Shown piece after piece: positions 36,701 through 39,700 of a DNA stretch of 64,000 bases. Position 1 is the first letter of the stretch. Each line of letters begins with the position of its first letter. The stretch is from NCBI GenBank assembly GCA_030248135.1, contig JASANC010004962.1, positions 1 to 64,000 of the forward strand. The letters run 5' to 3'. Source of the stretch: Theristus sp. LFF4_11 (lineage: Eukaryota > Nematoda > Chromadorea > Monhysterida > Xyalidae). The notes below the pieces were generated by a model. The model searched no databases, had not been told where the DNA came from, and was given only the letters and a program-made list of their open reading frames with translations. The position numbers were made by a program, and so were the translations under genes.

Positions 36701-39700
36701 AATCGGCCGTAGAAATGGCATAGGAGAAATCGGCCTAAAAAACGAAAAATGAAAAACCTGAGTTGTCCGGGGTTTAGAAGAATGTGTGACCAACGAATTG
36801 TGATTTTGGTCCGACCTTCGGGGCTTATGTAAAAGTCAGAATATTATCTAAAAATGCGGGAGACGCATATAAAAGGAAGAATATGGCCTTGTGTAAGCAG
36901 TGAAAGACTTGGCTCGACAACGCTTTTCAAGTCTCTGATGTGGTACACACGGATACAAGTACATAAGGGTCATATTTTTGCGCCGCGTTTGTTTGTTTTT
37001 TTTGAAGCACGCCCCCCCCCCCCACCGATTCCGGAAACCCGAAGGTACCAAACTCCGGTGGGATTGGGGAATGGACGGCTCACCATCCCGTGGAACCAAT
37101 ACCCTCGGCACGTGAGGGGGACAGCCTCTAAGCCCCGCTCTGTCCTGGGGGCACCAGTGATCTTAGCCCGATTTCTGTGCTGAACCCCACATACTTTGCA
37201 CGTGCATTTGGCGTGCCGTGGCACGCGTGTTACATTTTATGTGTTACGTGTTACATTTATGTTGCTAGTTGCGTGATGCGATGCTATGTTGTGTCTTCGG
37301 CAACATCGTTGCTCATGCTTTTGCCTGTGCTCTTGTCTGTTCTTTTTCAGTATGAGTCTGTGTGTGTCTGTGTCTCAAGTTGCAGTGGCAAGTAAAACGT
37401 TAACCGTTGAAAGGAATCAACACATATTCTGGCATCCCCTGCGGGAGTCGAACCCGCCGCCATCGAGTCGCCAACACCAGACCGCAACGAAGCGCCAACA
37501 CCAGAAGCCGTTGAGTCGCCAACCACGCTGACAGAACCAATGCCCGTAGCAGCGGTGATCGGCATCGCAGCAGTCGTTGTTGAACCAACACCTTGATCGG
37601 AATCGGCCGCCGTCGGCGCTCCGCGTGATGGCTCACTGATCAACGATGGCGAATCAGCGACAGTGGTAGTCGGTGGCGCTGGAGGTGACGCAGCGGCAGA
37701 GACAGTCACCGGCGTCAGTTTGTTGTTGACTTCGAGAAGTTTCGTCTCCAGCGTGACGACAATATCCTCCCCCTGGAGGACGATTGGCAGGTAGCCGTTG
37801 GTGGCGTGCTGGTCGTAGAATGTCTCTTCGTCGGCGAAATGCTCGGGTGGCAGTTCAGAAAGCCATTTCTGCCAGTTTGTGTCGATTTGCGTCAGATGGC
37901 CGATTGACGATTTGATGCGCTGAATGTTGTTGATCAACGAATAGCGCGCATTGTGAAGTGCGGCGTCAATCTGAGCGTCAGTGTCATTTGGTCCGTGCAG
38001 TTTTGAGTAGTCTGGCAAGTTGTCCAGTTGGTTGACAAGTGCGGAACGGCGCAGCGCAGCGTTTCGTCGAAACATGCCGGACGCCATTCTGTTGGTCGCG
38101 CGTTGCTCGTTGGGATGCCAGAATATGTGTTGATTGTTTTCAACGGTTTAACGTTTTACTTGCCACTACAACTTGAGACACGGACACATACACACTTACT
38201 GAAAAGAACAGACAAGAGCACAGGCAAAAGCATGAGCAACGATGTTGCCGAAGACACAACATAGCATCACATCACGCAACTAGCAACATAAATGTAAACA
38301 CGTAACACATAAAATGTAACACGCGTGCCACGGCACGCCAAATGCACGTGCAAGTATGTGGGGTTCAGCACAATTTCGGTTTCGGTGGCCTGCGGTCGCT
38401 ATATCCCCGGAGGGCAGCGAATCCGAAAGTTTTCGTTTTCGTTTTGCTGAAAAGCGTAAAACTTTGAAGTTATTTTTTAATTGTCCCCTTCGATTTAATC
38501 TAAAATCATGCCATGTGCGAAATTCTGTAAATTCTGTGCAAAAACAGAAAAATCAGAGATTGCAAAACATTGTTGCATGTAGCTTTTTCGTTGTTGTTAA
38601 CGTACGCACCGCTGTGTACACACCAGCACCAGTGACAAAAAGGAGTTGTCTTCCGTTGATTTTCACCTTTTTTACCGGTGTCACCTTCAACTAGTGTGGC
38701 AGGATAAACCGGCTGTCCCGTGAGTCATTGCCTTTGCCACAGGAGACCTTGCGTTCCGCAATGCTTCTGCGATACAATTTGTCCTGGACAAACCAGTGTC
38801 AGCGAGCTAAAGTCTGATTGTTATTTTAGTAGTTTTAGTGGTCGCTAAATGCCCGAAATCCGCAAATGTGAAAGGTCATTTGTCTACAATACAAAGTACG
38901 AGGGTTGCCATGTGCAACCGAAATCATAAATAAACGGCGCAAAAATATGACTCTTATGTACTTGTATCCGTGTGTACCACATCAGAGACTTGAAAAGCGT
39001 TGTCGAGCCAAGTCTTTCACTGCTTACACAAGGCCATATTCTTCCTTTTATATGCGTCTCCCGCATTTTTAGATAATTTATTTTCTGAATTGTCTTTTTT
39101 CCAGCGACCGGTTCGTTGCCGCGGTGCAGGACACCGACGCGCGCACGGTCACCGACGACGTCGAGGAGGATTGACAATAATCCAAGTGCGATTAGGATTT
39201 TGCTGACTTTCTCTGGATTTCTAGATCATACTTTTCGAAACATTCTGTCCTGCACAAACGCCAGACATGCATTTTTCTACTGAGTCTGGTGATTGATTCA
39301 ATCAGTCAATAGAACAAACAAACAAAAATCAATGTGCATGAAAAATAGAGTTTTTTTGTTTTGTTTTTCTCGGTTTTTATGTCGTTTTTACGGATCTGAG
39401 CAGTGTATCGCCATCGGACTTCGACTGCTTCAGAGCTGCGCATCGCCGACATTCAACAGCGACTGGGTGAGTCGGTGAACGGCATCGTGAAGCATTTCCT
39501 GCAGCGCGTCGACAAGGAGCAGAGCAGGGCGCAGCTGACGCGACTGCTGTGCGACAGAGAAGACGGCCTGGTGGCGTTGTTGCAGGAGGCGTTCGCGGTC
39601 GGGCTGCGCTCGTCCAGGTTCTTCAAGCAGCTGTTTCCGTGGGATTATGTCGGTGCGTTCGCATGAAATGTCGCTGAGTTTTTTTTGTTTTTGGATTTTT

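Follow-up and report, generated by a model that had tools for sequence, protein, structure and literature searches.

The window (the whole 64,000-nucleotide stretch analysed, C3151:1-64000 of a searched assembly of 159.4 Mb in 3744 contigs) holds a retroelement insertion which is a real, well-preserved product of aberrant reverse transcription, and we put at roughly three in four the probability that it arose when integrase inserted a dimer of two plus-strand reverse-transcription intermediates. One of its two LTRs is joined to a partial gag through a copy of the 3' part of tRNA-Arg(UCU), and the other is the original 5' LTR with its PBS. A strong-stop intermediate appears in this way to be preserved in the chromosome, with the tRNA copy, the point of pairing and the parental haplotypes all readable.

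Anatomy of the insertion

Comparison of the window with itself aligns two inverted LTR copies (37176-37438 and 38112-38372) at 95.1% identity over 265 columns, spans that take in the spacer and the first PBS bases. The 3' boundary of the LTRs proper (...ATCAACACA) was set from the solo LTR L022, which is flanked by GGAAT on both sides, from the like-flanked L023 and from 3' LTRs; the resulting features are collected in Table 1. The head-to-head arrangement named in the original prediction holds, with U3 outward on both sides, as does the reading of the right LTR as a minus-strand 5' LTR followed by PBS and gag. Both ends of the element begin exactly at U3 (TGTGCTG), the base right after the parental PPT-like GGGTGGGAG. 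The gag reading frame runs uninterrupted from its ATG across the join, and the insertion carries no pol. Between the left LTR and the tRNA copy the spacer TATTC, which is missing past the 3' or solo LTR ends of L016, L019 and L022, has been kept, as in an intermediate whose U5 end would never have met integrase.

Table 1. Features of the inserted element in the window
Feature	Positions	Strand	Basis
TSD ATTTC, left	37171-37175	.	identical to 38373-38377; one ATTTC at empty site
Left LTR, haplotype A, U3 end (TGTGCTG) outward	37176-37424	+	LTR comparison
Unprocessed U5-to-PBS spacer TATTC	37425-37429	+	seen in parental 5' LTRs
28-nt tRNA-Arg(UCU) copy, positions 49-76 with CCA	37430-37457	- (tRNA sense)	exact match, L029 and L032 genes plus CCA
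GCGGGT, 6-nt overlap common to gag and tRNA	37452-37457	-	seven parental gag copies compared
5' leader and truncated gag, ATG at 38087	37452-38111	-	98.8-99.7% identity to seven parental copies
PBS TGGCATCCC, 9 nt matching tRNA 3' end	38112-38120	-	sequence comparison
U5-to-PBS spacer (TATTC)	38121-38125	-	sequence comparison
Right LTR (original 5' LTR), haplotype B, U3 end outward	38126-38372	-	LTR comparison
TSD ATTTC, right	38373-38377	.	exact, identical to left TSD

The 5-bp duplication and the pre-insertion site, both proposed beforehand, are exact: the composite repeat around the insertion has a second copy (window 27201-27921, reversed), in which a single ATTTC stands at the empty site, and the joined flanks of the insertion align identically with it at 594 of 635 positions. 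These composite repeats (window 25288-27920 and 34356-39077), in one of which the insertion sits, consist of tandem 149-bp units and have terminal segments in inverted orientation. Elsewhere the window has a tandem array of 52-bp period at 21036-21930, most copies of which are about 97% identical, and a 1.1-kb inverted repeat (46-1152 and 1742-2841, 95% identical) with tandem units inside.

An inverted LTR could in principle come from a later chromosomal inversion of the second LTR, or from wrongly joined contigs in an assembly as fragmented as this one, in which several parental copies lie at contig ends. Judged from the TSD, the empty site and the similar loci elsewhere, such an origin is very unlikely, given a perfect TSD around the inverted form, a precise empty site, a tRNA sequence with its CCA exactly at the join and inverted forms at other loci.

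The parental BEL/Pao element

The gag part is found at nine other places in the assembly at 88-99% identity, eight of these at 98-99%, leaving aside short matches to tandem units. The full-length parent that the original prediction said should be looked for is present as L017 (C932) and L021 (C3413), each running from LTR and PBS through a single long ORF to a PPT-like tract and a direct 3' LTR. Five pieces taken in frame from the L021 ORF match the Pfam domains DUF1759, DUF1758, Peptidase_A17 (Pao peptidase), RVT_1, Integrase_H2C2, rve and DUF5641, with RVT_1 (25.7 bits, cut-off 29.6) and rve (28.1 bits, cut-off 32.6) scoring under their cut-offs; the first (gag) piece gave no match. On these domains the parent is of BEL/Pao type. 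TSDs of about 5 bp are seen at the window insertion, L009 (CATAC), L010 (AACTC) and the solo LTR L022, and by eye the flanks displayed for the full-length L017 and L021 show none. In its parent's Pao-type pol domains, its TG..CA LTRs, PBS and PPT-like tract and its 5-bp TSD the family resembles other BEL/Pao elements, whereas the window copy departs from them in its inverted LTRs (those of L017 and L021 are direct), in an LTR carrying a tRNA copy, and in having partial gag without pol.

Inverted terminal repeats are also a feature of DIRS-type retroelements, which rely on a tyrosine recombinase and are not known to leave a TSD. The window insertion, in contrast, has a 5-bp TSD and an empty site and its parent has integrase domains; the five L021 ORF pieces gave no tyrosine recombinase match at E <= 0.001.

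The tRNA copy and its join to gag

Bases 37430-37457 are the exact complement of tRNA-Arg(UCU) positions 49-76 (49-73 plus CCA), so the identification of these 28 bases as a tRNA copy ending in CCA is borne out, with two genes (L029 and L032, called by ARAGORN, which was run on 8 of the 13 matching places) as its counterparts. The gene-encodable 25 nt occur without mismatch at six places in the assembly, namely these two genes, the window, and the PBS-like sites L030, L031 and L033. Directly 3' of both genes stands AAA and not CCA, and since the window copy has the CCA it was made from mature tRNA. The window itself has no tRNA gene by ARAGORN in its bacterial setting. In all seven parents compared the 9-nt PBS is followed by AACGAGC, so that the other 19 bases of the copy do not come from a parental PBS. 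A chance match was rejected on the exact 28 nt with CCA, and a reversed control pattern gave 0 matches. The 28 nt are a lower limit of what was copied, since further unpaired bases of the tail may have been lost.

At the join, seven of seven parental gag copies read ...GGCGGCGGGTGCTG, so gag and tRNA share GCGGGT; an overlap between the two had been proposed correctly, though as GCG only, and the parental copies extend it to 6 nt. Across this point the parents (7/7) read GATGGCGGCGGGTGCTG as against GATGGCGGCGGGTTCGACTCCCGC in the window. The chance of sharing 6 nt or more is about 0.0013 in a simple random model. The search of the assembly found this LTR/tRNA/gag join only in the window, with no second copy.

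Overlaps of 6 nt are usual for microhomology-mediated end joining, and a host pathway of the polymerase-theta type could have joined the LTR-tRNA cDNA end to a broken 5' half before integrase inserted the product. This would give the same anatomy, and L009 with its A/T-rich filler and L010 with its patchwork (see below) resemble repair joins; its sequence outcome is the same as that of a join made by reverse transcriptase, and the two are inseparable by sequence alone. It does need a separate break in gag, and still requires reverse transcriptase to copy the tRNA, and we regard it as improbable, although the most serious of the competing accounts.

Two LTR haplotypes

Reverse transcription in its ordinary course leaves an insert with two LTRs that are copies of each other. 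Between the window LTRs 16 alignment columns differ, 8 of them substitutions and 8 gap columns, and both states of all 16 are present among 19 other LTR rows, a result that holds without the one truncated row; the rows are partly non-independent, some being both LTRs of one element or likely duplicates (L022/L023). Against these 19 rows neither window LTR has a private base, the rarest shared state being found in one other row, and no row among the 19 is equal to either window LTR. In gag, 1 of 667 window positions is unlike all seven parents. The LTRs without a private base and the gag with one unique position suggest that the insertion is probably young, and the difference between its LTRs, being older than the event, indicates that two separately made LTR cDNAs were joined. 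Judged by these shared states the window LTRs derive from two different element copies, and the event was one between two molecules.

The haplotypes bear on a single-molecule alternative, in which a plus-strand strong-stop DNA copies gag from genomic RNA as far as R, snaps back on its own R and then copies its own U3. Inverted LTRs with U3 outward are expected from it too, and the identical arms of L009 fit it. Yet it predicts identical LTRs, above all in U3, while those of the window differ along their length at sites variable in the family and have no private base; moreover a hairpin offers just one free end to integrate. For the window the LTR haplotypes contradict it, and we give it very little weight there, L009 being compatible with it.

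A proposed route from two intermediates

In the reading that we prefer, two plus-strand intermediates made into one dimer, molecule A would be a plus-strand strong-stop DNA (U3-R-U5-spacer) which had copied its tRNA-Arg primer for 28 nt or more, past A58. At the normal second transfer its foreign tail would not be extendable, the PBS of the family being only 9 nt. Molecule B would have come from a different copy, as plus-strand DNA that had gone through transfer and been extended some 660 nt past its PBS, into gag. A and B would pair at their 3' regions by GCGGGT/ACCCGC and each be extended on the other, giving a linear double-stranded DNA that ends in a genuine U3 on each side, which the integrase of the element would insert with a 5-bp target duplication. 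We infer the order of these steps, the stranding of A by the PBS mismatch and the use of reverse transcriptase rather than a host polymerase as the joining enzyme; the paired strands could also have been filled in by the host enzyme.

That the partner was plus-strand DNA and not genomic RNA is suggested by the exact U3 at both ends. Genomic RNA as template for the gag half was considered and rejected, for the product would then end at R or, after transfer, run beyond U3 into the PPT. Plus-strand DNA, by the way it is made, already has its end at U3, and two such strands extended on each other would yield the observed molecule with nothing more needed. The original prediction had a trapped strong-stop DNA annealing within gag and being integrated, and this core agrees with the tRNA genes, the 6-nt overlap and a second family with a similar join; what changes is that the partner should be plus-strand DNA and not genomic RNA, and that two molecules were involved, as the LTR haplotypes indicate.

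Other inverted-LTR insertions

The 94 matches to the element lie on 30 contigs, of which 26 had loci re-examined and four were judged by match position alone; at six of the 30 (C2297, C3369, C995, C345, C3704, by match position only, and C3316) the 5' part reaches the contig end, where a partner LTR is not judgeable. Inverted LTR pairs less than 2 kb apart were found at three loci of the family, the window, L009 (C2946) and L010 (C1798). L009 has 241-base arms with zero mismatch around an A/T-rich filler of about 40 nt that repeats AAACCGTTG, and no tRNA copy. L010 is a patchwork in which the left arm begins inside the LTR and the arms are of different haplotypes and a 4-nt insertion occurs that no other copy shows; no more than about 6 nt (TGGCAT) are tRNA-like, fitting PBS or tRNA equally.

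A second family contributes one inverted pair, L037 (C109), which reads LTR, 19-nt tRNA copy, antisense internal 3' region, leader, 9-nt PBS and inverted LTR. The overlap at its join is 10 nt, ACTCCCGCAG, carried by L065 at the place where the tRNA copy starts; in L065 the internal region of this join is an ORF end and the sequence after it, the ORF matching Phlebovirus_G2, an env-type glycoprotein. L037 is without a clean TSD and its left U3 end is altered. At five internal columns its arms differ, each with a state missing from 7 other rows, so the arms were alike at birth, the differing states being private to one arm. Given the identical arms of the one and the one-arm-private states of the other, L009 and L037 do not need two genomes. 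In L065 (C3101) the tRNA-like ACTCCCGCAG is followed about 20 nt later by a PPT-like tract and by an LTR-like start of a different kind.

All four inverted pairs (window, L009, L010 and L037) have U3 outward. Among the three beside the window, which are heterogeneous, L037 alone has the tRNA-joined form, and it would seem from these sequences that displaced strong-stop DNA can be rescued in several ways. By match position, none of 32 matches to the LTR family of L042 forms an inverted pair. L070 (C1184), an LTR with a PPT-like tract upstream and a PBS downstream, suggests head-to-tail elements sharing an LTR.

The original prediction also raised the possibility of a self-propagating, non-autonomous inverted-LTR form. 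That a join of this kind can be carried on is seen in the second family, in which the LTR/19-nt tRNA/antisense join of L037 recurs in L046 (C2553) and L039 (C1270), there going over again to sense orientation. However, the LTRs of L046 are direct (and 100% identical), the window join was found once in the assembly search and the inverted join differs among all four inverted-LTR loci; a transcript of an inverted-LTR element would also be expected to lack the R repeat on which normal strand transfer depends. We consider such a family extremely unlikely.

How far the primer tRNA is copied

Copying past A58 had been singled out as unusual; the window copy does reach position 49, and is not exceptional in doing so. 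An 18-nt PBS pattern gave 27 sites, the window included, not every one of them shown to belong to a complete LTR element and two (L055 and L059) looking like one locus twice; complementarity to the tRNA ends after 17-19 nt at 14 of these, after 21 nt at one and after 22-52 nt at 12. A longer pattern, which by design favours long copies, gave 16 places, four of which were compared (L076-L079, 41-50 nt); these are unmatched at their first bases and may derive from another tRNA or have decayed. Some copies end at about 50-52 nt, adjoining tRNA position 26, a position that carries m2,2G in many eukaryotic tRNAs. In the short direct-LTR element L042 (C1738:6031-7179), with LTRs 99% identical, 50 nt of the PBS region are perfectly complementary to tRNA-Arg(UCU), up to position 27.

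The base exactly opposite A58 is changed to C or A in the PBS-like tRNA-Arg copies L038, L040, L044, L055/L059, L057 and L079. Among the 14 long copies tested this base is changed in 5, the figure for the other cells being 14 of 480 (binomial tail 3.4e-5), in a test chosen after the data had been seen, leaving out L052 and L059, not counting L057 (21 nt, also changed), and including L040 and L044, whose LTRs are related. Changes at position 36 are also raised (3/10). A tRNA gene with G58 was considered as source of the C and rejected, since the candidates on C1611, C2246, C142 and C1424 are by context the PBS-like L040, L044, L055 and L059; that rejection rests on ARAGORN at 8 of the 13 places in an assembly that may miss genes. 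We take the changes opposite A58 as a lead only, suggesting that genomes may record the bypass of modified A58. In L052 (C3178:89163) the tRNA copy has a tandem duplication, GTCGA/GTCGA, in the T-loop near A58, as if synthesis had stuttered.

Relation to known systems

Work on the intermediates of plus-strand strong-stop synthesis has mostly been done in vitro or with unintegrated DNA. For HIV-1, plus-strand products past m1A58 are described that end at 55, 54, 37 or the tRNA 5' end, only some of which can serve in the second transfer (PMC13191261), and the stranding of a long tail in a family with a 9-nt PBS fits with such overextended products being only partly productive. Synthesis beyond A58 is common to both, the window having an LTR with a tRNA copy to position 49; what is described for HIV-1 is an intermediate (PMC13191261), whereas the window form is chromosomal and joined to another strand. 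A copied tRNA trapped beside an LTR is known also from an MMLV circle (Colicelli and Goff 1986, as cited in PMC12220202), which, as far as that citation describes it, differs in being a circular clone, spuriously primed by tRNA(Gly), and not an integrated inverted-LTR form. In the openly licensed papers searched, and within the parts of them available, we found no report of an integrated tRNA-joined inverted-LTR element, and to that extent the window insertion is a variant of known reverse-transcription intermediates not seen reported in integrated form.

Its structure suggests that integration can succeed with U3 at both ends of an element, and offers a simple way for inverted-LTR hairpin loci to arise. 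Rules of strand transfer could then be read from genomes, among them the length of tRNA copied, the minimal pairing, the involvement of two genomes and the ends that integrase accepts. A further idea, which we hold to be doubtful, is that for the elements of this genome plus-strand pairing is a regular second outcome of reverse transcription, brought about by overextension into the primer tRNA in families whose PBS is very short, and that U3/U3 inserts are transcribed inward as hairpins, the dsRNA of which silences the parental family; if so, an element's copying error would found its own repressor.
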